A stretch of 51,102 nucleotides of DNA from a virus. The stretch's first letter is position 1, and every line of letters starts with the position of its first letter. This document shows positions 2,423 through 51,102 of the stretch, piece after piece. Location of the stretch: positions 1 to 51,102 of the IMG/VR virus record IMGVR_UViG_3300007351_000010; one strand, 5' to 3'. Under the pieces are notes generated by a model. The model did no database searches. It was not told where the DNA came from and saw only the letters and a list, made by a program, of their open reading frames with translations. The position numbers and the translations under genes are program-made.

Positions 2423-3283
2423 TTACGGTCCGGATGCGGGGATCAAATCTTCCTGGGCGACAAAAAATACCTCGACTGATTGGTTACAGATACCAACGAG
2501 TAGTCTAGTAACAGTGCTCTTCAACCGGCTTTGTAGCCAGTCTCTGGCATACGCGTTCCCACAGAGGAGGTAAAACTTACCATCCTGGTAATCGGAGGCA
2601 TCGACATCCCGCACCCAGGTATCGAAAGCAGCTTTGGGCATCTCCATCTGGAGCTGGCCTTTCGCTGCGGTCCAGGCTTCTGTAGGAGAGTAGTTGCATT
2701 TCTCGATTTTTCTCCGAAGAACCTCATTGGTTAATTTTGATGGTTCTTTAAGGACGGTTAATGACGGATTCACGGACATAGCTATGTCCCCTATTTTCTG
2801 TGGAAATGTCCCCTGTTTTTCTGAAATGTCCGTTATTTGGGGACATGGTGTCCCTTGTTTTTCAGAATTAGGGGACATAGTGTCCTCTATTTTCTGATAA
2901 TCAGGGGACATGGCGTCCCCTATTTTCTGCTCTTCCGATGGGTCCTCCGGTTCGTTTTCACTGACTTGAGGTTTGCTGGCCGGCCTGCCACGCCGTTGGC
3001 TCTGGTATGGATCTCGTTTCGGTAGTGCATCTACGTCGATGCGATATGCCTGCGTCTTGAATGGGCTTGAGCCATCACGTATCAAAATCTTCTTAGCGAT
3101 CAGCTTAAGCCGAATACGTGTCACCTGCTTTTCGCTGTATCCGGTCTTATAAGCGACCAGCGGATCACCCGGGTAGATGCTCCGGCCGGTGTGATCTGCA
3201 TGATCTGCATAAGCCAGCAGCACGTATTTTTCGTCTCGCTCCAGGTCGCTATCCCAGACCAGTCCCATGATATGTACACTCAT
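2423..3283 (-). CDS. Replication initiator: winged-helix N-terminus plus DnaA N-terminal-like domain
   Basis: The protein has 286 residues. Residues 1-75 look like the helix-turn-helix domain of phage replication proteins (KQVTRIRLKLIAKKILIRDG). Residues about 203-276 match the DnaA N-terminal domain pattern (W, FDTWV, AYARDWL, VEVFFV), which in DnaA binds helicase. The linker (118-170) is built from repeats such as KIGDAMSPDYQ and KIEDTMSPNS, encoded by repeated DNA that looks like origin iterons. A lambda O-like role follows: bind an origin inside its own gene and recruit the host helicase. GAGG lies 6 nt before the ATG. No polymerase or helicase is encoded, so host enzymes are presumably used. 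Confidence 0.8.
   Translation of the reverse strand: MSVHIMGLVWDSDLERDEKYVLLAYADHADHTGRSIYPGDPLVAYKTGYSEKQVTRIRLKLIAKKILIRDGSSPFKTQAYRIDVDALPKRDPYQSQRRGRPASKPQVSENEPEDPSEEQKIGDAMSPDYQKIEDTMSPNSEKQGTPCPQITDISEKQGTFPQKIGDIAMSVNPSLTVLKEPSKLTNEVLRRKIEKCNYSPTEAWTAAKGQLQMEMPKAAFDTWVRDVDASDYQDGKFYLLCGNAYARDWLQSRLKSTVTRLLVGICNQSVEVFFVAQEDLIPASGP
2774..2930. repeat. Iteron-like repeats inside the initiator gene, candidate replication origin
   Basis: Three close copies of a unit beginning GGGGACATRGYGTCC start at 2839, 2871 and 2904 (spacing 32 and 33 bp, about three helical turns). Two further related copies of TGTCCCCTRTTTTCTG lie at 2785 and 2807, and GGACAT is at 2774. The flank at 2718-2770 is AT-rich. 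In lambda, iterons within gene O form the origin, and the arrangement here is the same. Confidence 0.7.
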
Positions 3284-3753: not shown

Positions 3754-4764
3754 TTGGAAAATTCGTTTGAAACTAAGACGGGCATCAAAACTTTGTTGAT
3801 GGCGAGCCAACCAACGTTGCTGCAGGCAGTCGAGACATTTTTACAGGTAGGACTGGCCGGGCGTAGCCCGCGGACGGTAGAGTGGTATCGCAAGCACCTT
3901 GTGCCACTGGCGCATGATCTAGGGGAAGAAATGACCGTGGGAATGGTAATGGAAGCAGACTTGCTGGATTGGTATGCCAGGCTGGAGAGGCGGCAAGTGC
4001 GTTGGGAAGGCAGCTCCAGGCCGACTGCAAAGGGGAGGCTGGCGCCGGATACATTGCACGGCTACGTGCGGGCAGTCAGGCTGCTGTTCAAACGGTTGAT
4101 GCAATGGGGAGTGATCCTGGAAAACCCGGCAGCTCATCTCGAGCTGCCAAAGCTGCCACGTTCTGGGCGGCCGGGGATCAGTGACAGCAACGTACAGGCG
4201 ATCTTGCATGCAGCGAAGGACGATATCCGGGATTACGCATTGCTGCGTTTCCTGGAAGCGAGTGGCTGCCGGCGGGGCGGGATCGCCAATCTACAATTGG
4301 GGGACTTGAACCTGGATAATGATAACGAGCGGCTGCGGAGGCGCGCTACGGTGCATGAGAAAGGAGCAAAGGAGCGATCAGTTGTGTTGACGCCCGGCGC
4401 TCTACAGGCATTGGAGGCCTGGCTGGAATTGCGCTCGAAGTTAGAGATCGATTCACCAGATGACGACCACGTGTTCCTTGGGCGAGAGCACCAGGGCATG
4501 CCGTGGCGTCCAATGCGGGAAGATGGCATTTCGGGAGTGCTGCGGCGCTACAAAGAGCGGCTGGATCTGCGAGGTTCCTGTTCGCCGCATCAATGGCGGC
4601 ACCGCTGGGCCAGAAAGCGACTCCAGGAGGGAATGGGATTGAGCCAGGTTTCGCAGTTGATGGGGCACGAAGACGTGTCGATCACTGTGCGTTATTATGG
4701 CCAGTTCACAATCGACCAACTCCAGGATGCTTACGACCGCTTTGTCAGCGATCCAAAGGAGTAA
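3754..4764 (+). CDS. int: Tyrosine recombinase (phage integrase)
   Basis: The protein has 336 residues, usual for the family. A SAM-like N-terminal DNA-binding region (about 20-130) precedes the catalytic domain. Catalytic residues visible: Arg173/174 in GCRRGG, Lys203 in HEKGAKER, His279 and Arg282 in HQWRH, His305 in LMGHEDVS, and the nucleophile Tyr314 or 315 in VRYYG. It should integrate and excise the phage at the tRNA-Lys attB. TTG is chosen as start because GGAGG lies 6 nt upstream; the next ATG is 45 nt inside and lacks a comparable site. A strong terminator and attP follow directly, the usual int-attP arrangement. Confidence 0.95.
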   Translation: MENSFETKTGIKTLLMASQPTLLQAVETFLQVGLAGRSPRTVEWYRKHLVPLAHDLGEEMTVGMVMEADLLDWYARLERRQVRWEGSSRPTAKGRLAPDTLHGYVRAVRLLFKRLMQWGVILENPAAHLELPKLPRSGRPGISDSNVQAILHAAKDDIRDYALLRFLEASGCRRGGIANLQLGDLNLDNDNERLRRRATVHEKGAKERSVVLTPGALQALEAWLELRSKLEIDSPDDDHVFLGREHQGMPWRPMREDGISGVLRRYKERLDLRGSCSPHQWRHRWARKRLQEGMGLSQVSQLMGHEDVSITVRYYGQFTIDQLQDAYDRFVSDPKE

Positions 4765-6632: not shown

Positions 6633-7436
6633 ATGAACGACCAGATATTTGTGGATATGGCGGTATTACAACAATTGGAACGGATCGCCAATGCGCTGGA
6701 GAAGCTGGCGCGTGGGAACGCGCCGGAAGAACCCAACCTGGTGCGACCGATCGAAGAGTACCGCCGCTTCGACTGGGCCAGCATCGGCGCATCGGTGGTG
6801 CGGCAGGACTCGGACGGACCGACGCACCTGGAGTATGGCGGTTTTGTGTGGAGCCGGCGATCCCCGCAGAACAAATTTGATGGAGCGATCTGGTACAGCC
6901 GGTCGGCCGGGAAAGATACTGAGGGGAATGTGCTATATTTGCGGCTGATCACTTTCCGGGAGATCAAGGATGTGGACCCACTGCCGGCGAAGCTGGCCAG
7001 GACTCTGACAGCCGCTCCGGAGGCTGCTGCGCCAGTGAAGAACGCCCAGCCTGCACAACCCGCAGAGATGCCGGCAGAGAAATCAAACGAAGCCACTTCT
7101 GCGCAACCAGTAAAGACGCCGGCAGCGAAGAAAACGCCGGCAGGCAATGGCAGGCTGGCCAGGGAGGATTACCTGAAACAGGCAGTGAGCAAGAAGTTCA
7201 ACCTGAGCGCCCAGGCAGCCGAGGCGGTAGCGCAGATAGCAGGCATTCCAGACGACGGAAAAGACCCACGGGCAGATTATGCGCCGGCGATGAAGTTAGT
7301 GCCTTATTTCGCAGAGTGCAAGGCCCTGGGGATCGTGAAGTTCACCGAGGCGCGTGACATCTTGCAGAAGCACCAGGGCGACATCGAACAGGCGCTTTTC
7401 GACGTGCGAGACAGCCGGCAGGAGGCGAAGCGATGA
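6633..7436 (+). CDS. Conserved phage protein of unknown function (267 aa)
   Basis: The N-terminal part (about 40-115) has a pattern often seen in phage early regions: FDWASIGASVV, then GGFVWSRRSPQNKFDGAIWYSR. A long Ala/Pro/Lys-rich linker (about 125-180) leads to a C-terminal helical domain (YLKQAVSKKFNLSAQAAEAV). The linker joins two folded modules; the second resembles a small helical binding domain. The AGGAGG site is close before the ATG. The family is familiar from phage genomes but I cannot name a function. Confidence 0.85.
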   Translation: MNDQIFVDMAVLQQLERIANALEKLARGNAPEEPNLVRPIEEYRRFDWASIGASVVRQDSDGPTHLEYGGFVWSRRSPQNKFDGAIWYSRSAGKDTEGNVLYLRLITFREIKDVDPLPAKLARTLTAAPEAAAPVKNAQPAQPAEMPAEKSNEATSAQPVKTPAAKKTPAGNGRLAREDYLKQAVSKKFNLSAQAAEAVAQIAGIPDDGKDPRADYAPAMKLVPYFAECKALGIVKFTEARDILQKHQGDIEQALFDVRDSRQEAKR

Positions 7437-16959: not shown

Positions 16960-19077
16960 ATGGCAGATAGATTTGAAGAGATCGGATCGAGCGGTTTGCA
17001 GCAGTACGCCGGCATTATCGCCGAGGCGTACAATAAAAAGCTGGAATGGCCCGAGGTGGCCAGCGAATATAACCGCATGTGGCGCAGCGATTCGGAAGTG
17101 GCTATAGGGAGGAATGTACTGCAGGCATTTGCATCGCGGGTGTCAATATCATTTGTTTTGCCAGAACAGGAAGGTAAACCAACGGATGACGACCAGCGAG
17201 CGGTGGAATTTGCCAACCAGGTGCTCAGCGATCTGGATGGCGGTATCACTTCCTGGCTCAGCTCGTGTCTGGCTCGAGTGCCATTCTATGGCTGGGGATG
17301 GTGGGCAGCGCCGGCTTGCTTGCGCAAAGAGGGCTGGAAGGCGCCAGATGATGATTGGCGCTCGAATTATAACGACGGATTGATCGGTTTCAGGCGTCTG
17401 GCATTCCGGCAATATAAGTCGTTCTACAGTTGGGAATGGGATGAGTCTAACCGTCGGATTCTGGGAATGAACCAGCTTGACGTGTACAACCCCACGGGCG
17501 GGGTGGTGTTGATCCCAAAAGATCGTAGTCTGCACATTATTTTCGGAGACCGTGAAAACCCCGAGGGTCTGGCGACGTTGGAGCCCATGTGGCGGTTGGA
17601 GAGACTCAAATATGGCCTGGAGGTGATTTTAGGAATTGGAAGCGAGCACACCGCCGGCTTCCTGAACGTCACATCCGATAGGGCTGAACTCAACAGCACA
17701 GACCACGCTGCAATCCGCAAAGCCGCCCATGCTATTATGAGCGCGCAGGAGGGCAATTACGCAGCCTGGCCGCAAGGCATCAAGGGGGAATTGACCGACG
17801 TGCCTTTTGCGGCGGGCACTGTCATCCTGGACGCTATCCGATATTACGGCATCCTGAAGCTGGCGTTGCTGACTATGCAATGGATGGCATTAGGCACGAT
17901 GAGTCCGTATGGGAGTTATTCGGCATCGAACGACGCATCGAACTTCTTTATCTCGCTGTTCAATGCGATGGTGGGCGGGATCGTCAAACAGGCAGACGAG
18001 CAAATCGGCAAGCGGCTGTTCGATTATCCAATCAACCAGGCGGCATTCCCAGGGATGACCAGGCGTCCGATCCTGCAGGCGACTCCGGTGCAAAAAGATA
18101 TCCCGCTGGCCGAGATGGGGGGATTCCTGACGGCAGTCAGCGCAATCATGCGATTTGGCGATGATGACCTGATTGCTATCCGGCGCAAGAGCGAGTTTCT
18201 GCCAGAACAGCTACCCGAAGAGCCGGCCGAGGCGCCGCAGGCTGAGCAAAAGCCTGGATCGACTCCGGCGCAGGCGGCTACAGAACAGCCGGGGGGCGAT
18301 CTTCCGACGCCGGAAGATGAGCCGGGGAGCGCAGATCCGGGAGAAATGGCGCTGCATTCCGGAGCGATGTTGGCATTCTATCTCCCGCAGGAGTACGCGA
18401 AAAAACTACAACAGGCGGTGAAGGCTGCTCTTCCAGAAGGAGCAAAGGGCATCGATGCGAAGGAGATGCACATCACCCTGGCGTACCTGGGCGAAGTGCA
18501 GCAGCTCGGCGAGAAAACCAGAGAAACAGTGCGCCAGATCACCCAGCAGATCGCCGGCGTCTACCTGCCGCTGAAGGGCAAAGTCGAAGGGGCTGGCCGC
18601 TTCAAAAAGCAGGAGGAAGGCGACCACACGAATGCGTTCTGGGCGCAGCCAGACATTCCGGGAATCCAGGAATTCAGGATGCGCCTGGCGGTCGCACTGC
18701 AGCAGGCGGGTGTGAAGCTGGGCAACAGTTACAGCTACCAACCGCATATCACGCTGGCTTACCTGCCGAAGGAGGCGCCGACGCCGGCATTTGAGATCCC
18801 GGACGGTGAGTTCGAATTGGGTGAGATTGTGCTGGCGTGGAGCGACGACGTTGAGGCTTTCACTCTAAGCGGCTCGCAGCAGGCAGAGCTGGCGCAGCGC
18901 CCATTCGTCGTTCCGGAGGATGAGCTGCCGACAGACGTGATGCACGAGGCTGACACGGTTTACGATGATGCGGCCAAAGCAGTGCGCAGGTTCAAACGCT
19001 GGGCTGAGGAGAATGATCCCGAGATGGCAAGTATATTGGATGCGAAGGCAATCGAAGAAGATGCAGACAATAGCTGA
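16960..19077 (+). CDS. Portal protein fused to a C-terminal 2H phosphoesterase
   Basis: 705 residues. Residues about 1-410 are a DUF935/Mu gp29-like portal. After a Pro/Ala/Glu-rich linker (about 415-465) comes a 2H (LigT-like) domain with both signatures, HITLAYLG (His504) and HITLAYLP (His596), preceded by GAMLAFYLP. The 2H family cleaves or ligates 2'-5' and cyclic phosphates; viral members can destroy cyclic-nucleotide immune signals. A copy at each portal subunit would put 12 copies at the entry vertex; whether it is active there is unknown. About 60 acidic residues follow the domain. Confidence 0.9.
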   Translation: MADRFEEIGSSGLQQYAGIIAEAYNKKLEWPEVASEYNRMWRSDSEVAIGRNVLQAFASRVSISFVLPEQEGKPTDDDQRAVEFANQVLSDLDGGITSWLSSCLARVPFYGWGWWAAPACLRKEGWKAPDDDWRSNYNDGLIGFRRLAFRQYKSFYSWEWDESNRRILGMNQLDVYNPTGGVVLIPKDRSLHIIFGDRENPEGLATLEPMWRLERLKYGLEVILGIGSEHTAGFLNVTSDRAELNSTDHAAIRKAAHAIMSAQEGNYAAWPQGIKGELTDVPFAAGTVILDAIRYYGILKLALLTMQWMALGTMSPYGSYSASNDASNFFISLFNAMVGGIVKQADEQIGKRLFDYPINQAAFPGMTRRPILQATPVQKDIPLAEMGGFLTAVSAIMRFGDDDLIAIRRKSEFLPEQLPEEPAEAPQAEQKPGSTPAQAATEQPGGDLPTPEDEPGSADPGEMALHSGAMLAFYLPQEYAKKLQQAVKAALPEGAKGIDAKEMHITLAYLGEVQQLGEKTRETVRQITQQIAGVYLPLKGKVEGAGRFKKQEEGDHTNAFWAQPDIPGIQEFRMRLAVALQQAGVKLGNSYSYQPHITLAYLPKEAPTPAFEIPDGEFELGEIVLAWSDDVEAFTLSGSQQAELAQRPFVVPEDELPTDVMHEADTVYDDAAKAVRRFKRWAEENDPEMASILDAKAIEEDADNS

Positions 19078-35613: not shown

Positions 35614-37239
35614 CTAAAACCCCAATTGCTTCCCTTCAGCCTTCTTGATTTTTTCGGCTTTCTTGAAAGTGCCGGCATCGGGCGGCATCTGGATCTCTTT
35701 CCCGGAAAGCAGATCCTCGATGGTCAGAATCTGGATGCGGGGATACTCCTTCTGCCAGATCGGGGAAGTGTACTTGCCGGCTTCCAGGGCTTCCTTGAGC
35801 ATCGGGACGCTGGGCGGCTCCAGGGTGATATACACGGCCAGGGCAGCTTTTTCACGTTCGAGAACGCCATGCAGGTCCCGGATGTCGCTAGATTTGACGT
35901 GACCCGATTTGACCTGGATGATCACCCGCTGGAACGCATCGCTGGTGTTGTCGATAAAATTGATCGTGCCATCAATGCCCTGATCGGCGCCCTTTTTACC
36001 TTTCTTGCTGGACGGATCGCCGCCTTCCGGCCTGGCGCGCACAAGCGATAGCGCCCACCATTGGAACTGAAAGCGATCATCCTGGGCAAGCTGGCGAGCA
36101 GATTCCATATCTTGCGGCTCGCCAACTACCTGATACTGGCTGGTAGGGAACATATCTTTCATGCGGTAGCGAATCAAGCTGATTGCCAGGTGAGTGATGT
36201 CGATACCGATCCAGCGCCGACCCAGTTTCTCGGAGGCGGCAACAGCCGTCCCACAGCCACAAAACGGGTCCAAAACAACGTCGCCCGGATTGCTGCTGGC
36301 CTGGATAATACGTTCGAGCAAGGCAAGGGGCTTCTGGGTGGGGTAGCCGAGGCGTTCGGCGGCCTGAGAGTTGATGGGAGGAACATCATCCCAAATATCT
36401 TGAAGGGGCGTTCCCTGCATTTCATCCAGGTAGCGAATATACTCAACGCTTCCCGATTTTGTGTAGTGTAGCCTGCCTTGATCGTGAAGTTCTTGCATCT
36501 TTTTCTCTGGGCATCGCCATATCTTTGTTACGCCATTCCATGCATACTCATAGCCGCCGCCAGAAAGACTTGTAGCTGTGAGATTGTCGGTCCTAAACTT
36601 TCGACCAGCTTTGTCCAGATAGCGGTAATGGCTCTTTATGTACTCATTACTGTATGGTTGATATTGCTTATTCCACAAAAGTGTATCTGATTTTGAATAG
36701 AACAAGATTACATCATGGGAGTTGCCCAGTGTTTTGGAATCGCTATGAGCGCTTGTGCGTTTCCAAATGATTTCGCTATTAAAGTTTTCCGCCCCGAATA
36801 CTGTATCCAGAATCACCTTCAAATAATGGCTGGCCGTTGGGTCGCAATGCAGATACAGGCTGCCGGTTGGCTTGAGAACCCGCTGCAGCTCCACCAGGCG
36901 GGCAGCCATCATTACCAGGTAGGCGCCCATCGGGCTGTGACCGACAATGCCGAGCATGGACTGGACTGCATCATCCACTTTCCCAGGGTTGGCACGAATC
37001 AATTCATTCAGTGCATTATCGGCGGAATCGCCCCAATGCCAGGAATCACCAAAGGCGGTTATCTGAGCATCGGCAGATTTACCGCCTTCATCCCTGAAAA
37101 GAACATTATAGGAGCGATTAGAGTTGAACGGGGGGTCGAGGTAGATCAGGTCAACGGATTCGGACGGGATGTAATCCCGAAGGATGGGGAGATTGTCCCC
37201 ATAGAAGAGGGTATTACTGATTATCGGTTTTGGGTTCAT
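35614..37239 (-). CDS. DNA methyltransferase fused to an Mrr-like nuclease
   Basis: 541 residues. The methyltransferase part has catalytic DPPF (35-38) and SAM motif [11 protein letters not shown] (about 320), in the beta-class order. Residues about 390-500 form a PD-(D/E)XK unit of Mrr type: [12 protein letters not shown] then VIIQVKSGH. Methylation and cleavage in one chain resemble type IIG or Mrr-type fusions. It probably protects the prophage and cuts foreign DNA. AGGA 7 nt before the ATG; opposite strand to its neighbours. Confidence 0.9.
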
Positions 37240-37521: not shown

Positions 37522-38388
37522 ATGACAATTTGCGTTGCTGTAAAAGTTAGCGAAGGTTTGGTGTTGGCAGCTGATAGTGCTGCAACAATCCATGGTGAGC
37601 TTCACTTACCCAATGGAGAGGTTTCAATCGGTATATTGAAAACTTATGAGCATGCTCGTAAGCTTTCGCACGTCAAGGATTACCCAATTGGCACTTTGAG
37701 TTGGGGACTATCCTTGATCGGACCTCGTAGTGTAGAGAGTTTGATAAAAGAATATGAATACAGCCTTCAATCTCTCCAAGAAGAACAAGAAAAGGCGCAC
37801 CTTTGCAGACTGGAAGGCCGAGCTGAAGTTGATCCGTTTAGGTATCAGGTTAGAGACATCGCACAAGGATTGTTCCAGCATATTAAAAAATTCTATGAGG
37901 CTAATTTACCCGAAGATAAACGCTCCCCGCTTGGCATCCTTGTAAGTGGTTATTCTTCAGACCAGTTCTTTCCAGAACAATTTATGATCCAAATTCCCGA
38001 ATCTCCAGATTTGAAAGAGTTGCGGAAAGATGTTAATGGAAAGCCGAACTTTGGAGCTGACTGGTTTGGGCTGACAGATGCCATGACACGTTTGCATTGG
38101 GGACGTGACCAACAGGTAGTCGCCATAATTGCTGATCGATTCAAAGTAGAGAAAGAAGAAGTTCGTCAACTGCTTGAACCACTCCAGTATCAAATAGTAT
38201 TTGATGGTATGCCGCTTCAAGATGCGATAGATTTTGCTGTTTATGTTGTAAATGTAGTGATCGGAAGATATCGTTTTGTTCTTGGTGCTCCACTTTGTGG
38301 AGGCGAAATAGATGTTGCCGTTATTACACCTGACAATTTCACATGGATTAATAGAAAAGCCTGGAAAATTGACAATCGCATTAGTTAG
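37522..38388 (+). CDS. Proteasome beta-like (Ntn hydrolase) protein
   Basis: 288 residues. After Met removal, TICVAVKVSEGLVLAADSAAT matches the start of proteasome beta / HslV subunits, with Thr1 and Asp17 in the catalytic spacing and an RKLSH lysine after an insertion. The rest keeps a four-layer-like pattern (ALQYQIV-type strands, VLGAPLCGGEIDVAVI). AGGA is 6 nt before the ATG, and a TATAAT box lies at 37484. It heads a three-gene run with a small protein and a Doc toxin. An ATPase partner is not seen here. Confidence 0.8.
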   Translation: MTICVAVKVSEGLVLAADSAATIHGELHLPNGEVSIGILKTYEHARKLSHVKDYPIGTLSWGLSLIGPRSVESLIKEYEYSLQSLQEEQEKAHLCRLEGRAEVDPFRYQVRDIAQGLFQHIKKFYEANLPEDKRSPLGILVSGYSSDQFFPEQFMIQIPESPDLKELRKDVNGKPNFGADWFGLTDAMTRLHWGRDQQVVAIIADRFKVEKEEVRQLLEPLQYQIVFDGMPLQDAIDFAVYVVNVVIGRYRFVLGAPLCGGEIDVAVITPDNFTWINRKAWKIDNRIS

Positions 38389-38407: not shown

Positions 38408-38626
38408 ATGTTCCCCCTTATTTCAGTCGATGGTACAGTATCGACAAAACCACAAATAATACAAGGTGAGATTGTTATTGAAATCGGAACCTTAGACACC
38501 GGTAATATAATTTTTGCCCACAGGCCAAAGAAGTATCATCAGTTGCCTCAGCCGGAAGTTGTAGAAAGCCTCGAACGCAGTCTGGAAGAGAATGCTGCTG
38601 TATGGGAAGAGCTATCAAAACTCTAA
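38408..38626 (+). CDS. Small protein, possible antitoxin (72 aa)
   Basis: AGAGGA 8 nt before the ATG. Beta-rich start (MFPLISVDGTVSTKPQ) and an acidic helical end (VVESLERSLEENAAVWEELS). It overlaps the Doc gene by 25 nt, the usual arrangement of an antitoxin gene. No known antitoxin fold is recognised; an antitoxin role is inferred from context. Confidence 0.65.
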   Translation: MFPLISVDGTVSTKPQIIQGEIVIEIGTLDTGNIIFAHRPKKYHQLPQPEVVESLERSLEENAAVWEELSKL

Positions 38627-39012
38627 CCCAAGCAGATATAATAGTCATTAACCATTGGATGATTCGGAGATTTGGTGGGGTTTTCTTTAGCCACGATAAC
38701 AATTTGGCGAACCCTGGGTCGCTTGACCATGTACTAGAGGCGATCGAGGGTTCGCTGTTTGGTCAGGAACTGTATCCCACATTGTTTGAAAAGGGAGCCG
38801 CTATTGCTTGGCGAATTATTAAGGGGCATGTTTTCCATGATGGCAATAAACGGACTGGTATGGAGGCATGCCGTAACTTTTTTGATCTAAATGGCTATAT
38901 ATTAAAGATGGATAATCAAACCATCGACGTTGCTGTTGATATAGCCTCAAACAAAATGGAATTTCCAGATTTCGTGGCATGGATTGAAGGACGAATCGAA
39001 AGTAAACCATAG
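38602..39012 (+). CDS. doc: Doc / Fic-family toxin (136 aa)
   Basis: HVFHDGNKRTG (76-86) is the Fic/Doc active-site motif with His, Asp, Asn, Lys and Arg in place. Doc proteins of this length phosphorylate EF-Tu. GGVFF and the ALL-helical frame agree. It overlaps a small gene and stands after a proteasome-like peptidase. No classical Phd antitoxin is seen. Confidence 0.88.
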   Translation: MGRAIKTLTQADIIVINHWMIRRFGGVFFSHDNNLANPGSLDHVLEAIEGSLFGQELYPTLFEKGAAIAWRIIKGHVFHDGNKRTGMEACRNFFDLNGYILKMDNQTIDVAVDIASNKMEFPDFVAWIEGRIESKP

Positions 39013-39116
39013 ATAGAAACTAAACCAACAAGGATTACCAGAAATTTAATCGGTCAGGCAAATCGGAATACCGTCTATCGGTGGTTCAAAACAAGACTCT
39101 GAAGGTTGGGTTATAA

Positions 39117-40295
39117 ATGGATTATTCGAGATTTGTTGAACTGATAAATGGGGGAGAAAAGCGCAATGTTGATTTTAAGATCAAATGTGATGCCTTTCAA
39201 CAATCGCTTTCTTCTAATGCGGAATTAGCCAAAGATATCTGCGCAATGTCTAACAATGGCAACATTGTCAGTTATATAATTCTGGGAGTGTCTAATGACA
39301 GGAAGAATTTTCTTTCGGTGGCTAATCCCAACTTGAAGGACGACGATCTCCAGGTCTTCTGCAAAACTAGAATTTTTCCACCTCCGAAAGTTAAATTAAT
39401 TCGAAAATCTTGGTCAAAGGCTCACACTAATCACAAAAACAAGGAATTTGTCATCATCCAAATTGGACCTCATCGGCGTCAAGCATTTCGTCTAGCTCAA
39501 GATTTTATTAATTACGCCGAGGAAATTTGTTACAGACGAAATGAAGTTTGGATTCGACGTGGTGCTACTTCGGATTTAGCAACACCGGAGGAAATTGAAC
39601 GGCTTATAAAAGGCGAAGCAATAGAGAATACTCCAGATGATATATTAAAACAGGAGGAAAGGTTGAATTTTAGCAAATTAGCTGTTGCTAATAGGTTGTG
39701 TGATATAAACGCTGCTACAAACGATGAATTGCGAAGACTCGGCTTTAAAAAAGCTAAAGAGAAGCAAGAGAGGCGAAGGAGACTTTCACTCCAGGAGGAA
39801 TTACTCAACGCGATTTATCCCAGAAGTAAAAAACTCGACTGGTATCTTAAGAGATATCCGTCATACGTCATGGCCGTTTATATGAATAATAGTAAAGAAA
39901 GCCTTTCTCAAAAAGAAATCGAACAATTTGAGATCAGAATTCTAGCCTGGCTTCATTTTGCAAGAAAAAGTGACTTTCCGCCGCTATTATCGAAGATTAT
40001 AAACCAAGATGTTTTACCAATTAGACGGCTATTGTTGCAGCCAGTACTGGCAAATGTGCCACGCAAAAGAATACAAACCGCATTGAAAACTTGGAAATGG
40101 GCCGGATACTGCTCACATTACTTCACACCTGTAAGCAATACAGGATATTCTTCAGATACCTTTTTCCCCTCGAGTTCGGAATTATTGATAGTTGATGACA
40201 TAGAATCGGTATCGGACTACAAAGAAGAACTTCTTAAAGCTTTGCAACTCGTTACAGAAAACGAGAATACTATTTGCTCACCAATAACCGGATAG
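39117..40295 (+). CDS. AlbA_2 / Schlafen-type protein (392 aa)
   Basis: Residues about 8-130 match the AlbA_2 domain (VDFKIKCDAFQQ, AKDICAMSNNGN, YIILGVSN). The rest is helical, basic and Asn/Lys-rich, with several tryptophans. Proteins with this domain are common in defence islands and mobile elements. Here the base use is AT-rich, unlike the phage core. No ATPase motif is visible. Confidence 0.8.
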   Translation: MDYSRFVELINGGEKRNVDFKIKCDAFQQSLSSNAELAKDICAMSNNGNIVSYIILGVSNDRKNFLSVANPNLKDDDLQVFCKTRIFPPPKVKLIRKSWSKAHTNHKNKEFVIIQIGPHRRQAFRLAQDFINYAEEICYRRNEVWIRRGATSDLATPEEIERLIKGEAIENTPDDILKQEERLNFSKLAVANRLCDINAATNDELRRLGFKKAKEKQERRRRLSLQEELLNAIYPRSKKLDWYLKRYPSYVMAVYMNNSKESLSQKEIEQFEIRILAWLHFARKSDFPPLLSKIINQDVLPIRRLLLQPVLANVPRKRIQTALKTWKWAGYCSHYFTPVSNTGYSSDTFFPSSSELLIVDDIESVSDYKEELLKALQLVTENENTICSPITG

Positions 40296-45891: not shown

Positions 45892-47065
45892 CGAGTTGCA
45901 CCTCACCCGTTTCGATCTTGTAAATCAATTCATCTCGGCTCACGCCTACCCCAATCAGGTATGTGCCCTTGTTGTTGGTGGCGATCTCCACGCCAGCAGC
46001 TTTCAGGGCTTTGATGGTGGCATCCCACATCGAACCGCTGCCCGTCTCCAGCGATCCTACCAGGCGGCGAGAATCCTTTTTGCCGTACAACTCATTCGAC
46101 TTATGCAGGATCTCCAATGCCCGCTTCTCAGTATCATTCAGCGGCGGAACCATCACCGGAGATGGATTCTTTGCGCTGTAGATCGGCGGGAAGGGCCTGA
46201 TCGGCGGCGTTCCTGCAGGGGCCTTTGCGCCCTCCGCCGGTTCCCACTTTCCATCGGTGATCTGCCAGATATTGCCGTCGTCGTCTTTCATCACTGTGCC
46301 CTGATTGGCTGCAATGGCGATTGGATTCCAGCGGGCGATCAGAGTCACAATCGCAACACCCAGCAGGAACAGACCGAGCAGACCCAGCGCGCCCCAGCCC
46401 AAAACCTGAACCAAAGCGGTTCCGGTCTTCTGCCTGCGCAGCGTTTCAGCCAGGCGCCCACTTTCAACGGCTGCCGTAAACGGTGCTGCGAGTGTTGAGA
46501 TTGCCGCGTCTACTGTGGCAGTCGCATTGTTGCTTATCTCCAGGCGGGCGTCTGTGGTTTGCTGTGCGGCAGCCGCACTGGTTGACTTTGCAGCGGTATC
46601 GGTCGAAAGCGCGTGAATGTCTGCCAGTCGTGCGGCTTCGATGGCGGCGAGGTTGGCCTGTGCGGTTTGACTTGCGCTGATGACCATTTGCGTACCGGTG
46701 ACTTTCAGCAGCGTTAGCGACCGGCTGTATTCTATGCGAGCCTGGATTTCTGCGACCTGGGCAGCAGTCAAAATTCCGTTCTGGGCGACTTCGGTCTCTC
46801 TGAGCGAGCGTTCCTTGGCGGCACTGGTCCCTTGCAGCTCGAGGTAATCTTTGTCCAGGGTATACATTTTTGCAGTCAGTGTGCTGGCCGGATCACCTGT
46901 GCTGATTGGCTTTACGACATCGGCGGGCGAAATGGTGGCGGTCGCTTTTGGAGTGGCGGTGGAAGCGGGGATATGGGCAGCAGCTTCCAGGCCGATGCAG
47001 GCAGTCATGAGAAGCGAGAGCAGGCTGATCAGGCTGATCAGCTTGATCAGGGTTATGTTACGCAT
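45884..47065 (-). CDS. Membrane lipoprotein with coiled coil and TM segment (393 aa)
   Basis: The N-terminus (MRNITLIKLISLISLLSLLM followed by TAC) is a lipoprotein-type signal, built from repeated LIS codons. An Ala/Thr-rich helical region (about 55-215) follows, then a TM segment (about 233-256) and a cytoplasmic C-terminus with a helical domain (EKRALEILHKSNELYGKKDS). Spanning both faces of the envelope, it suits superinfection exclusion or conjugation-like contact. Starts in an overlap with the 47058 gene. Confidence 0.7.
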   Translation of the reverse strand: MRNITLIKLISLISLLSLLMTACIGLEAAAHIPASTATPKATATISPADVVKPISTGDPASTLTAKMYTLDKDYLELQGTSAAKERSLRETEVAQNGILTAAQVAEIQARIEYSRSLTLLKVTGTQMVISASQTAQANLAAIEAARLADIHALSTDTAAKSTSAAAAQQTTDARLEISNNATATVDAAISTLAAPFTAAVESGRLAETLRRQKTGTALVQVLGWGALGLLGLFLLGVAIVTLIARWNPIAIAANQGTVMKDDDGNIWQITDGKWEPAEGAKAPAGTPPIRPFPPIYSAKNPSPVMVPPLNDTEKRALEILHKSNELYGKKDSRRLVGSLETGSGSMWDATIKALKAAGVEIATNNKGTYLIGVGVSRDELIYKIETGEVQLDD

Positions 47066-47549
47066 TATGCCACTCTCCATCGCCCTGGATGAGATCGGGC
47101 AATAACGGAATTGTCTCCACAAAGGTGGAAATATCCACTTCTGACGCAATGTATGGCACTCCACCAGGATGAGCAGCGACATTGGGCAACTCCAGAAAAC
47201 CGAACAACGCGCCCGGCTGAGTCTCGGCAGCGGTCAAAATCGCCTTGACGAAGTGGACGGCAATCCGCCCCATCTGATATTTTGCCTGTTCCTGATGCTT
47301 ACGCTTATTGCCGCCGAAGCTGCTGATTTTATCAGGCAAGCTGCAATCCAATGGGGTAAAAGCAAAGCGGTAGTTGCGTTCCTGCCATTGGAAACGGATC
47401 ATCCAGGCATACTTTCCACCACTCCGACCTTGCGCGACCATGGTGCTATCGGCGCCAAAGCTACCGAGCATCTCCATGATCTCACCCTGGGATTTAGCGG
47501 GGGAAACGGTGGTATCCCAGTAATTGGCTTCTTCTGCGAAACGGTTCAT
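47058..47549 (-). CDS. Unknown protein (163 aa)
   Basis: MNRFAEEANYWDTTVSPAKS, then GGKYAWMIRFQWQERNYRFA and FGFLELPNVA. Soluble alpha/beta protein. ATGA overlap with the upstream gene. Seen as a conserved neighbour of the cassette, function unknown. Confidence 0.7.
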   Translation of the reverse strand: MNRFAEEANYWDTTVSPAKSQGEIMEMLGSFGADSTMVAQGRSGGKYAWMIRFQWQERNYRFAFTPLDCSLPDKISSFGGNKRKHQEQAKYQMGRIAVHFVKAILTAAETQPGALFGFLELPNVAAHPGGVPYIASEVDISTFVETIPLLPDLIQGDGEWHNA

Positions 47550-48079
47550 AAGCTCACCTTTTCTGGCGTTGGCCAGGCAGCGCGCAGGCACCACCAGCCA
47601 TTGTGAGTGAACTGCTCGGGAGTCGTTTCTAATGGCGGATCGTAGGGCAGATGGTTGAGCGTGGTCGTCCATTCGTTCACCGAGGGATAGACGCCTACAC
47701 GCGCCAGCAGGATGCGACTCATGCCATCAATACCGACGATCATGTCGATGCGCAGACCGCCGGTGAGCTCGACGCGCTGGGGAACACCTGTGTTCTGTTC
47801 GGCACGCCGATGAAGATCGGCGAGGATCTGCGCCAGTTTATTCTTCGGTCGCGGACGAACATCGCCCGGGGCCGGGAGATCAGCGGGTTGTTTAGCCATC
47901 GTATGTTGCACCTCATCAGCGAATTGGATCTGCTCGCCGCTCAACGAACGAATGACGGCGGACACGTGGAGACCATCGTCATCATAGACGAAATTCCAAT
48001 GATCGATCTGCAGACCATAGCGGTCGCGCTCGGCCGGCCAGGCATCGAAGGTGATGCTGCGGGGAATGACGATCGTCAC
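47546..48079 (-). CDS. Unknown protein (177 aa)
   Basis: MTIVIPRSITFDAWPAERDR, a beta start, a Pro/Lys linker, and GLRIDMIVGIDGMSRILLAR with a Trp-rich end. Overlaps both neighbours. Function unknown; encoded with the ThiF cassette. Confidence 0.7.
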   Translation of the reverse strand: MTIVIPRSITFDAWPAERDRYGLQIDHWNFVYDDDGLHVSAVIRSLSGEQIQFADEVQHTMAKQPADLPAPGDVRPRPKNKLAQILADLHRRAEQNTGVPQRVELTGGLRIDMIVGIDGMSRILLARVGVYPSVNEWTTTLNHLPYDPPLETTPEQFTHNGWWCLRAAWPTPEKVSL

Positions 48080-48396
48080 CGAAGCAATTCCTGCATGGCT
48101 CGCTGGCCTTCCTGGGACTCCATCCAGGCCAGCGACTCTTCCATCGTGGCATCGAACTCGCCATCGATGACGCGGTGGGAAAATTCAAAATGGCCCAGGG
48201 CGTTCAGTTTTTTGACTAAGGCGATCTGTGGAAATACCAGGGTAGTTTTGAAATCATCGTAGACGCCGGCGCGGGCATTGGCGATCACGTCCACAAGCCG
48301 GGGGTCCCCCAGGGCCTCGAGAGCCAGAGCCAGGCGCTCGGTGGTTGGGATGGCGGACTCTTGGACAGGGCGACGGAAATTGTGCTTCTTAGTCAT
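48076..48396 (-). CDS. Unknown protein (106 aa), cassette neighbour
   Basis: The ATGACTAA overlap with the ThiF gene fixes the start (MTKKHNFRRPVQESAIPTTE). The body is helical (RLALALEALGDPRLVDVIAN) with an acidic end. It directly follows the E1-like gene and may belong to the cassette. No family recognised. Confidence 0.7.
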   Translation of the reverse strand: MTKKHNFRRPVQESAIPTTERLALALEALGDPRLVDVIANARAGVYDDFKTTLVFPQIALVKKLNALGHFEFSHRVIDGEFDATMEESLAWMESQEGQRAMQELLR

Positions 48397-49234
48397 GGTA
48401 GGCCTCCAGATTCTCGGGAGTAATATAGCGGCTGCGAGATGAGCCGCTGGCCAGGTCGATGTAGGTAGCGAAGCGGTTGAGGTCCTTGGTGAGTAACATG
48501 CGCACCAGGTAATCGGCGGCTTCTGCCGCAATGCGCTGGTTGATGGACATACCCTGGCTGTCGAGCATGGCCAGGTCGGCGCAAGAGAGATCACTGGCGT
48601 AGAAGGCGCCAGCTTCGCCAGGGGCAGGCGGGTCGGAGACCAGCTCGGGGTGCTGTGCGGAGGGCAATGGCAGCCAGGAACAAAAGCCGGGGAGCTGGAA
48701 AGGGTCTTCCGGACGGCGGAGGCTCGAGCCGAGAATTACCTGGCCGGCAGAGCTGAAATTTCCGCAGTCCAGCCACCAGCACACATGGCGGGAAGTGAAG
48801 CGCAGGATCTCGTTACGGGCCGAGGCACGGTCTACACAGCCAATCAGGAGATACATACTGTTGTAACTGCCCTCGATCTCCACAGCCGACACATGCTTTG
48901 CCCAGGCAGTGATCTCGACGCCCCAGGCCAGGCTGTAGCGGAAGGCCAGGGCATCGGCTTTATTGCGACCGATCTCGGCCTGGCAGAAGTTCTGGCGAAA
49001 GACGTTCTTGGCTTCCACTACGTCCGGATCGACAAAATGAACGTGGACCGACTTATCGAATTTCTCGATGATCAGCCGGGCGATGCGCACGACTGCCGGG
49101 GCAAGCCAGGAACCGGTGCCACCGCAGCCGACAAGCACCAGGTTGAGCGAATCGCCGGCAGGAAAGATCAATTTGCGGGCGCTCAGATAATCGAGGTTCA
49201 GGAATTCAGTCGAGGGAACTGTTGTAGTGATCAT
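48389..49234 (-). CDS. PRTRC ThiF-family E1-like adenylyltransferase (281 aa)
   Basis: The nucleotide-binding loop VLVGCGGTGSWLAP is at about 33-46. FVDPDVVEAKNVFRQNF then IGRNKADAL gives the E1/ThiF ATP site (Asp, Arg and Lys in place). IGCVDRASARNEI is the second motif. A candidate catalytic cysteine lies in WWLDCGN (Cys157). It should adenylate the C-terminal Gly of the ubiquitin-like protein. No ubiquitin-fold domain is present. Overlaps the JAMM gene by 29 nt. Confidence 0.9.
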   Translation of the reverse strand: MITTTVPSTEFLNLDYLSARKLIFPAGDSLNLVLVGCGGTGSWLAPAVVRIARLIIEKFDKSVHVHFVDPDVVEAKNVFRQNFCQAEIGRNKADALAFRYSLAWGVEITAWAKHVSAVEIEGSYNSMYLLIGCVDRASARNEILRFTSRHVCWWLDCGNFSSAGQVILGSSLRRPEDPFQLPGFCSWLPLPSAQHPELVSDPPAPGEAGAFYASDLSCADLAMLDSQGMSINQRIAAEAADYLVRMLLTKDLNRFATYIDLASGSSRSRYITPENLEAYHD

Positions 49235-49862
49235 AATGGTCTATCTCCATAGAAATGTTCCGATAGAGGACGTCTTCGACCTCCGCATCGGCGGGCAGGT
49301 CGAAAACCCAGTGAGCAGGGATTGGATAGAAATGGCCGTAGATGCCGACGCGCACGGCCAGGACAGGACGGGTGGAAATCTCACCCAGCACGGCATAGAT
49401 GCGGAAGCCGGTCTCGTCTTTATCGTCGGTGCTAGAGAAGAAAGCGCCCATGTTGTGATGGCTGTGGCACTCTATCAGGGCTTCTTGGCCATGTGGGTTA
49501 TACGGATCGACCGGATGGACGCTGGAGGGGGACTGGACCTGGTTGGGGATAACCAGCCTCCAGGGAAGGAAAAACTGCTGGCCAGCGTCATACAACAGAT
49601 AAAACAGGATTTCGTTCGGCGCAGCCTGGCGGGAGAAGTCGAGCATATCCAGCACGAAACCATACGGTACTTTCGTCTGCAGAACGACGGACGGCTCGAG
49701 TACAGACAGGCCACGGATATTGATGGCAGCATACCCTATGCAGGCAGACAGCCCAGGGCGCTCGGCGCGAATGAAGACGCCATTGCCGGCCAGAACATAC
49801 TGGTACAGGCCGGGCGGAAGCGCAGGCAAAGGCAGGGAATGTGCAATGTGGTGAGTGATCAT
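49206..49862 (-). CDS. PRTRC protein A: JAMM (JAB/MPN) metallopeptidase (218 aa)
   Basis: The complete metal motif HSH-x7-SxxD is present at HSHHNMGAFFSSTD. An N-terminal beta domain of about 90 residues (LPPGLYQYVLAGNGVFIRAE) precedes it. JAMM enzymes cut isopeptide or peptide bonds after ubiquitin-like proteins. In this cassette the likely tasks are to free the Gly end of the ubiquitin-like precursor and to remove it from targets. ATGA overlaps with E2-like and E1-like genes. Confidence 0.9.
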   Translation of the reverse strand: MITHHIAHSLPLPALPPGLYQYVLAGNGVFIRAERPGLSACIGYAAINIRGLSVLEPSVVLQTKVPYGFVLDMLDFSRQAAPNEILFYLLYDAGQQFFLPWRLVIPNQVQSPSSVHPVDPYNPHGQEALIECHSHHNMGAFFSSTDDKDETGFRIYAVLGEISTRPVLAVRVGIYGHFYPIPAHWVFDLPADAEVEDVLYRNISMEIDHYDHYNSSLD

Positions 49863-50566
49863 CGGGACTCCAGAATGTGTTCGATGAGAAGTCGAATGGA
49901 TTTATTCACCGGAACCAGATCGGCGTTGGGGAACTTACCGGCTTTCTGGCCGTGCAGAGTGCGCAGGAGCGTGCAGGCGTTATCCAGCTTTTGTGATTTG
50001 CCAGCAGCCAAATCCTGGTTGAACAACGAGCCAAAGAATAACTCCCAGACCTTGCGGGCCGACATCGGAGCGGCGGGGCCGGGCCGGTTCTGTCCCCAGC
50101 AGATATGGCCGTCGTCATAGACGTTGGGGAACGGAGCGTGGAAAGCATCGGCATTGGGATCGAAAACTTTTGTCTGTACGGCCCAAAGATAATAAGTTGC
50201 ACCGACGCCTAACAGCACAGTACGAGGAATCGGCACAGTCAGGTCTTGTGGGTCGTCGCCGGCTTTCGTCATAGCCAGGGTGACTTTCTGCGCAGGAGCG
50301 CTGTAGACAAAATACTCACCTTCGGAGCAGGTCCCCCAGCGCACGACGCCGGCGGGCAGCCAGCCAGTATCGATGTCTTTCTGAGTGAAAGCGGCGGCGG
50401 CATCGACCAGCGAAACAAATTTAGATTGGTATCCGCCACCCGACAATGGACGGCGGTAGAGCAGATGGCCACTGTCCAGGAAGTAGAGGGCAGCCAGGTA
50501 ATTGAACGGCGGATCGACCACCGGCGACAGAACAGGATAAGAAATCGTTACGAGTTGATCAGTCAT
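49859..50566 (-). CDS. PRTRC protein B: E2-like ubiquitin-conjugating protein (235 aa)
   Basis: PNVYDDGHICWG (147-158) closely copies the eukaryotic E2 active site (HPNVYxxGxVC), giving Cys156 as the thioester cysteine. The upstream strands YYLWAVQTKVF and FHAP keep the E2 spacing. The N-terminal half is a beta domain (FLDSGHLLYRRPLSGGGYQS). It would take the activated ubiquitin-like protein from ThiF and pass it to targets. The ATG at 50566 overlaps the upstream stop by 8 nt; a longer frame to 50728 is a shadow of that gene. Confidence 0.9.
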   Translation of the reverse strand: MTDQLVTISYPVLSPVVDPPFNYLAALYFLDSGHLLYRRPLSGGGYQSKFVSLVDAAAAFTQKDIDTGWLPAGVVRWGTCSEGEYFVYSAPAQKVTLAMTKAGDDPQDLTVPIPRTVLLGVGATYYLWAVQTKVFDPNADAFHAPFPNVYDDGHICWGQNRPGPAAPMSARKVWELFFGSLFNQDLAAGKSQKLDNACTLLRTLHGQKAGKFPNADLVPVNKSIRLLIEHILESR

Positions 50567-51102
50567 ATTCGTCTCCATCGGGATCGGGGCCGATCGGGCC
50601 ATAGAAAGGATCGACCAGGACACCGTTTTCAGTATCGGTATCGTCATCGTCTTCGAATTCGGCCTCGCCCCATATCTCGACCAGGGTACGCGGGCGGCGC
50701 TCTTCTTCGTACTGCATACAAGAGTCATACAAGACGATCAGGCGGTCGGCCACGCCCGGCTCTTTCTCGAAGCGCTGCAGGGCGGCGTTGTACTGCTCGA
50801 GCATGGGTTGGGCTTCTTCCCATTCGGCGGCGAGATCTTGGACGTTATTCAAGCAATAGCGCAGGCCCATGGTGTACATTTCCTCGTAGGTGTTATCCAT
50901 GAAGATGTTGCCAGTGTTCTGCCAGACCATCAGAAAGGCGATGGTGAAATCTCCCAGGCCGTTGCGGTCCAGCAGGTTGAGGAGGCGGTCGTGGTCGATT
51001 CGACCATGCTCATTGCGCAGGATGCATTCAGGAATGCGGTCGGGCCAACCAAAGCGCTCAGCGGCAACCACCCAATAATCCTGCTCGATGCGCCAGCTCA
51101 GG
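50559..51102 (-). CDS. PRTRC-cassette protein in the F position, C-terminal part
   Basis: Continues the protein that starts at 563 on the other side of the join. This part is helical (AAEWEEAQPMLEQYNAALQR) and ends in a very acidic tail (FEDDDDTDTENGVL, PDPDGDEYD). The acidic end resembles interaction tails; no catalytic motif. It overlaps the E2-like start by 8 nt. The last 99 bases here duplicate bases 1-99. Confidence 0.85.
   Translation of the reverse strand, partial: LSWRIEQDYWVVAAERFGWPDRIPECILRNEHGRIDHDRLLNLLDRNGLGDFTIAFLMVWQNTGNIFMDNTYEEMYTMGLRYCLNNVQDLAAEWEEAQPMLEQYNAALQRFEKEPGVADRLIVLYDSCMQYEEERRPRTLVEIWGEAEFEDDDDTDTENGVLVDPFYGPIGPDPDGDEYD
51004..51102. repeat. Terminal direct repeat, right copy (circular join)
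   Basis: Exact copy of bases 1-99. Removing one copy gives a 51,003 bp circle. Whether the virion DNA is circularly permuted (pac) or has fixed ends cannot be told from this. Confidence 0.97.

Follow-up and report, generated by a model that had tools for sequence, protein, structure and literature searches.

IMG/VR record IMGVR_UViG_3300007351_000010 is a viral DNA of 51,102 nucleotides, referred to here at its full length as the window, and it carries a cassette of genes for a predicted ubiquitin-like (Ubl) protein conjugation system of the PRTRC kind. The cassette runs across the ends of the record. Both contig ends carry the same 99 bp, and this exact terminal repeat indicates that the window closes into a 51,003-bp circle and that the join between its ends is real, as the first-pass annotation of this DNA had supposed in reading the cassette across it. 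Family matches identify a large terminase, a terminase small subunit, a major head protein, a tape measure and a tyrosine integrase, and the window is a tailed and probably temperate phage. On the minus strand, one operon spans the join and holds, in order, genes for a replication-initiator-like protein (Rep), ParB, C, F, B, A and ThiF, followed by three short genes, with neighbouring gene ends that overlap or almost abut. The starts that had been named for six of these genes (ParB 2345, C 1026, F 563, B 50566, A 49862 and ThiF 49234) are all valid start codons of minus-strand open frames. Shine-Dalgarno-like sequences are found 5′ of ParB (2345), C, B (50566), A and ThiF; none lies upstream of the F start at 563.

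Components of the cassette

The E1-like activating enzyme ThiF (48389–49234, on the minus strand like the rest of the cassette) has a single adenylation domain and a predicted catalytic cysteine, Cys218, in an invariant SC motif. It matches Pfam ThiF (7e-13) and NCBIfam PRTRC_ThiF (1.7e-38, 132.4 bits against a cut-off of 144.75). The gene for A, a JAMM/JAB metalloprotease (49206–49862), overlaps that of ThiF by 29 bp. A matches Pfam Prok-JAB (1.1e-9) and PRTRC_A (1.5e-16, 60.5 bits against a cut-off of 101.8), and its JAMM motif is intact (E84, H133xH135, S143 and D146). The E2-like conjugating enzyme B (49859–50566) matches Prok-E2_D above that model's cut-off (1e-25) and PRTRC_B below it (5.9e-17, 61.8 bits against 131.45). 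Its predicted catalytic cysteine lies in PNVYDDGHICWG and is Cys210 in a 289-residue frame counted from 50728. The motifs HSH-x7-SxxD, PNVYxxGxIC and GxGGxG that had been read by eye are thus present as HSHHNMGAFFSSTD, PNVYDDGHICWG and GCGGTG, and the family E-values are far from chance.

Relatives of the cassette were collected from IMG/VR, from a set of some 85,000 species represented by a single genome each, and from phage and plasmid records, giving about 210 loci (designated here by L numbers); most counts below refer to 84 non-redundant cassettes. Among these, the catalytic cysteines are conserved in every protein compared (82/82 for E1 Cys218 and 83/83 for E2 Cys210), and the JAMM residues are nearly so (E84 and H133 in 69/69, H135 and S143 in 68/69, D146 in 68/68). 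Such near-invariance indicates that a functioning conjugation cascade is under strong selection, and it is very likely that the cassette encodes an active one.

C (568–1026) is predicted, from its sequence and its model, to be a Ubl domain fused to a helical domain termed X, a fusion that is presented here as new. The beta-grasp occupies residues 1–60, the motif GTKG residues 60–63 (bases 838–849), and X residues 77–152, ending in GF. The segment past GTKG, comprising the linker and X (568–837), is a separate gene in relatives. AlphaFold2 models residues 1–56 as a beta-grasp with strands at 3–8, 11–15, 41–47 and 50–56 (predicted local distance difference test score about 95 over residues 1–50), followed by a disordered linker (61–76), a helical domain (77–139) and a loose tail to GF. 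Model residues 2–60 superpose on ubiquitin 1–76 with a VIA-align Z of 4.8–5.2 and a root-mean-square deviation of 2.5–2.9, a Z of about 5 being middling and common to other beta-grasp proteins. Because residues 2–60 span the whole of ubiquitin 1–76, GTKG is placed at ubiquitin's C-terminus. Foldseek alone finds no match for C in the PDB with E under 0.001.

Profile-profile comparison with annotated PRTRC C proteins gives 98.0% (2.8e-13), and the alignment stops exactly at GTKG; together with the AlphaFold2 model and the Prok-E2_D match, this bears out the earlier view of C as a beta-grasp protein and of B as an E2. The C of the window has no NCBIfam PRTRC_C match, and TIGR03738 is matched by nine of 30 C-family members. 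Across 30 C sequences, no column besides K62 and G63 is invariant. In relatives such as L046, L051 and L052 the Ubl gene terminates right at GTKG and is followed by a gene for X alone, ending in GF or a close variant. The fused C tails and stand-alone X proteins are homologous by hhalign (99.3%, 4.5e-20), and a GF or GW terminus is kept in 35 of 48 C tails.

Other phages carry Ubl proteins of a different build. Gp199 of Bacillus phage KLEB27-3 (L005, 1721–2428) consists of four tandem Ubl repeats, each ending in KAGVKG (Prok_Ub 5e-27), and the protein of Vibrio phage D69 (L007, 2388–3179) consists of three. The repeats of these two jumbo phages end in VKG or TKG, and both gene clusters include a JAMM gene, which counts in favour of maturation of the Ubl by JAMM. 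Separately, the PADLOC model C3a152, labelled "Type III-C specific", matches C residues 5–65 (5.9e-16), and this CRISPR-associated family appears to include the ubiquitin-like C protein described here.

The F-position protein (50559–51101, continued by 3–578 across the join) is a helical protein that starts at 563 or 578, its N-terminal part being encoded by 3–563. Homologues are found in 124 loci, one of which (L003) was modelled as all-helical. F matches none of the NCBIfam PRTRC models, and its candidacy as the classical PRTRC F was rejected when hhalign profile comparison found no homology. The best Foldseek hit of the F model in the PDB has a meaningless E of 0.7.

The ParB-like protein (1038–2345) adjoins the cassette and matches HTH_ParB (1.1e-17), TIGR00180 (1.3e-20) and PRTRC_parB (2.3e-9, 36 bits against a cut-off of 279). 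It bears an extra C-terminal domain, homologous to a stand-alone protein whose gene immediately precedes that of C on cyanobacterial plasmids (hhalign 97.5%, 7.7e-12). The cassette of the window has no separate E gene. A relation of the ParB-fused domain to classical PRTRC_E was considered and dropped (hhalign 0.1–0.6%), which suggests that in this phage lineage another domain, carried on ParB as a fusion, occupies the E slot.

The JAMM protease and the C tail

If A matures C, tails on C are expected only alongside A. For this comparison, a Ubl score of 40 or more was required of all loci but four (L005, L007, L029 and L097), and tail length was set to 0 by pattern for proteins ending in the motif. 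Among the 84 non-redundant loci, C has a tail of more than five residues past xKG in 57, and JAMM is present in 57 of these 57. JAMM is absent from 15 loci, and in 15 of these 15 C ends at the motif; the remaining 12 have JAMM and no tail (Fisher p=1.2e-9). The same is seen across all 140 loci, where 104 have both tail and JAMM, none has a tail without JAMM, 13 have JAMM without a tail and 23 have neither (Fisher p=1.8e-17). On a ThiF tree, three contrasts in JAMM and tail fall on starred branches, and these run in the expected direction or are equal, with none against.

A natural loss of JAMM is seen in L183, an uncultured Chloroflexi contig, where C is split into a Ubl gene ending in KAGTKG and an X gene ending in GW, the latter matching the X profile at 5.8e-8. 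L183 lies within a supported group of seven on the ThiF tree, and the other members have JAMM and a fused C. Retention of X as a separate gene in L183 suggests that X is a working protein and not a mere propeptide. Taken together, the co-occurrence of tail and JAMM and the split in L183 indicate that A probably matures C, a claim drawn from comparative sequence data and held with good confidence. No report of JAMM maturation in PRTRC-type systems was found in the literature searched.

Eukaryotic UBA52 and RPS27A are likewise fusions of ubiquitin to a second protein that are separated by a protease. The likeness is one of gene design only, a Ubl fusion with cleavage that is inferred here; X is unrelated to ribosomal proteins, and no kinship is claimed.

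Relatives and genomic surroundings

By sequence, the cassette of the window is a divergent PRTRC, or Iyer "type 6d", cassette and not a canonical one. PRTRC cassettes (ParB-Related, ThiF-Related Cassette; NCBIfam TIGR03734–TIGR03738) are known from proteobacterial plasmids such as that of Piscinibacter gummiphilus (NZ_CP136337). The window shares with them the order ParB-(E)-C-F-B-A-ThiF and homologous ThiF, A, B and C proteins, PRTRC C ending at GTKG whereas the C of the window contains it. It differs in lacking an E gene, in having an unrelated ParB C-terminal domain in the E slot, in the helical tail of C and in an F without sequence relation, and every NCBIfam PRTRC score of the window is below the curated cut-off. 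The first-pass annotation had described a temperate phage with E1, E2, JAMM, beta-grasp C and ParB genes arranged as in PRTRC, and this is upheld by the family matches, the AlphaFold2 model and the integrase. Its description of a full PRTRC set is not borne out as worded, given the missing E gene, an F and a C unmatched by PRTRC models and matches that all lie below their cut-offs. In the search with PRTRC hidden Markov models that it had proposed, ThiF, A, B and ParB are matched under cut-offs and C and F are unmatched.

Type 6d was defined as an association of Ub-like, JAB, E1-like and E2-like proteins with a rapidly diverging helical protein, and it includes cyanobacterial examples (PMC1779556). 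The window has all five components in one operon. It differs from type 6d, with its stand-alone C ending in Gly and a His downstream in E2, by the C-X fusion and by Asp239. The closest plasmid copies are cyanobacterial (47% identity in ThiF).

Enzymes of the same families occur on other phages, among them a Leptolinea prophage, two isolated phages and IMG/VR contigs. The chromosome of Leptolinea sp. HRD-7 (AP024710) holds the series integrase-ParB-C-F-B-A-ThiF-Rep(DnaA_N)-SSB-TerS-TerL, that is, an integrated prophage. Burkholderia phage BgVeeders33 (OK665841) has the classical E-C-F-B-A-ThiF set and another C tail, and Bacillus phage vB_BauM_KLEB27-3 (OM634661) has E2-like, JAMM and ThiF proteins and differs in its four-repeat Ubl. 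The nearest phage relatives of the window retain the gene order ParB-C-F-B-A-ThiF. Among 43 IMG/VR relatives taken whole, terminase or portal genes are present in at least 27 (three PHROG families only) and a tyrosine integrase in 31. Predicted full E1-E2-JAMM-Ubl sets are thus common cargo of temperate phages, and their carriage by the window phage is not unique. The earlier statement that such cassettes are mainly plasmid-borne and unusual for a phage stands as regards the open papers searched, where they are little described (phage-borne cassettes are not the subject of titles or shown abstracts of papers mentioning PRTRC), but not as regards phage sequence data, isolated phages included, where they are common. 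The terminase, portal-position, head and tape-measure proteins of the window have no match near other cassettes (9 kb on each side), which suggests that the cassette moves from one phage background to another. Salmonella phage Arash (L006, 1519–4539) carries E2-like and ThiF-like genes labelled "structural protein" in its annotation, and no paper on it was found in the literature search.

Upstream of the cassette in the window lies the replication-initiator-like gene (2423–3283, minus strand), whose product combines HTH_36 with DnaA_N (1.2e-8) and matches phage replication initiation PHROGs (2.7e-8). A protein bearing DnaA_N is found in the window, in Leptolinea HRD-7 and in 12 of the 43 IMG/VR records, and locus L131 has a Rep with DnaA_N. 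ParB precedes C, and genes for single-strand-binding protein (SSB), sliding clamp or DnaB lie near other cassettes. Plasmid cassettes, too, adjoin ParB and replication genes.

The three short genes past ThiF are also on the minus strand. The first (48076–48398) has an uncertain start, since the open frame extends to 48594, and it shares a short conserved stretch with L033 and L036. The second (47546–48079) has homologues 35–44% identical near other cassettes (L004, L039, L072 and L077), and the third (47058–47672) is conserved in six loci at two to four genes past ThiF. The tyrosine integrase gene (3754–4764, plus strand; phrog_1 integrase 4.5e-39) is transcribed divergently from the cassette operon. 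The stretch flanking it has no counterpart elsewhere in the assembly (75 contigs, 3.14 Mb) that would mark a chromosomal attachment site, so that the phage is not seen integrated in that assembly.

Several other genes of the window may be mentioned. A DdrB-like single-strand-binding protein (6633–7436, plus strand, 2.4e-14) has a C-terminus that weakly resembles a UBA domain (UBA_8 E=0.012) and is a possible, very uncertain, candidate for a Ubl reader. The open reading frame at 37522–38388 (plus strand) starts with MTICVAVKVSEGLVLAADSAAT and is at most suggestive of proteasome-type N-terminal threonine hydrolases; it has no match in Pfam, PDB sequences, phages or viral contigs. As a candidate part of the cassette it was dropped, being absent from the 43 cassette-bearing phage records in a search whose positive control was silent. 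The portal-position protein (16960–19077, plus strand) matches phage "RNA ligase" families in its C-terminal part (485–629), perhaps a fused 2H-phosphoesterase-like domain. The product of 35614–37239 (minus strand) combines an N6/N4 DNA methylase with an Mrr-like/NA-iREase domain, and an accessory region at 38602–40295 (plus strand) encodes a Fic/DOC protein and then a Schlafen/AlbA_2 protein.

Proposed mechanism and competing explanations

The proposed pathway begins with translation of C as a Ubl-X fusion, the step for which sequence and model speak directly. JAMM A would then cut past Gly63 of GTKG, as the comparative evidence suggests, releasing a mature Ubl with a free terminal glycine and a free X. 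By analogy with conserved E1 architecture, ThiF would adenylate the glycine of C and take C onto Cys218. B would receive C on Cys210 and hand it to target lysines; candidates for conferring specificity are F, X and the ParB-fused domain. A may also strip the tag. A working cascade of this kind with JAMM maturation, its target left open, is fairly probable. From the genes that surround the cassettes, replication or partition proteins are ranked as the likeliest targets, above the proteins of competing phages and the phage's own virion, a preference that is tentative. These would be proteins of phage or host, produced during establishment or maintenance of the phage or prophage genome, a guess that rests on the neighbouring genes. 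The complete scenario, in which a widespread and hitherto undescribed phage Ubl branch has its own JAMM cut Ubl-X into two working proteins and uses the tag on replication or partition proteins to secure establishment or maintenance of the phage genome, is more speculative still.

A number of points weigh against this reading. The E2 His that was called absolutely conserved in type 6d (PMC1779556) is Asp239 in the window; of the 84 relatives, 41 have His at this position and 35 have Asp. No E3 is recognisable in the cassette. Twelve non-redundant loci retain JAMM even though their C already stops at GTKG, and A must therefore have a further role there, for example in deconjugation. The state of JAMM changes only about five times on the ThiF tree, so that few independent events lie behind its association with the tail, and the sign test is not significant. 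The link to replication is correlative, drawn from 9-kb neighbourhoods without a baseline of random phage genes. Biochemistry for any member was not found in the literature searched.

The few JAMM losses also leave room for the idea that the C tail is a fixed functional C-terminus, that conjugation proceeds via the terminal GF and that the JAMM association merely reflects clade structure. The GF or GW end of most tails fits this idea. It is nevertheless improbable, because stand-alone Ubl genes end at GTKG while stand-alone X genes retain GF, the ubiquitin superposition stops at residue 60, C is split in L183, and K62 and G63 are the sole invariant columns. Sulphur carriers have the beta-grasp and the terminal glycine in common with Ubls, and ThiF has the fold expected for such a pathway, so that C might be a ThiS/MoaD-like carrier without protein conjugation. 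A dedicated E2 with an invariant Cys, the presence of JAMM, an end in GTKG and not GG, and a neighbourhood in which no sulphur-metabolism gene was noticed make this very improbable. The same argument was made in 2006 by Iyer et al. for type 6d (PMC1779556).

Bil, with E1, E2, JAMM and Ubl as in the window, modifies the central tail fibre of phages (PMC12948488, PMC11364771), and its JAMM exposes the terminal glycine of its Ubl (PMC11354881). On this precedent, the prophage cascade could be an inter-phage weapon that puts C on the structural proteins of competitors and so confers superinfection immunity, and the accessory-like recurrence of the cassette across temperate phages with unrelated packaging genes and on plasmids would suit such a role. 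The window lacks the features peculiar to Bil, namely two Ubl domains in BilA, the pseudodimeric E1 BilD and the CEHH motif of BilB (PMC11354881): AlphaFold2 gives C one beta-grasp domain, the E1 has a single adenylation domain, and the residues past the catalytic Cys of the E2 read CWGQNRPGPAAPMSAR, with no CEHH. In addition, the cassette adjoins Rep and ParB and no defence genes, and PADLOC assigns neither A nor B to a defence system and gives only weak E1-domain matches. A weapon is therefore rather unlikely. It is less probable again that conjugation or JAMM processing acts on the structural proteins of the phage itself during assembly or in its virion. The "structural protein" label of the Arash genes and the pairing of a Ubl, TAPI, with a JAB domain in lambda-type tail clusters (PMC1779556) speak for it. 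Against it, in the window as in L003, L033, L130 and L131 the cassette is placed apart from the head and tail genes, its strand in the window is opposite to that of the late genes, and the same operon is found on plasmids, which have no virions.

The preferred reading thus remains a conjugation cascade whose Ubl is matured by its own JAMM protease. PRTRC/type-6d cassettes were described in 2006, and an assigned function was not found in the literature searched. The phage set offers many diverged examples whose catalytic residues do not vary, together with a predicted cleavage site, a natural loss of JAMM and a Rep/ParB context, which make both maturation and targets testable. The most useful product of the analysis is the prediction that A cleaves C past Gly63.

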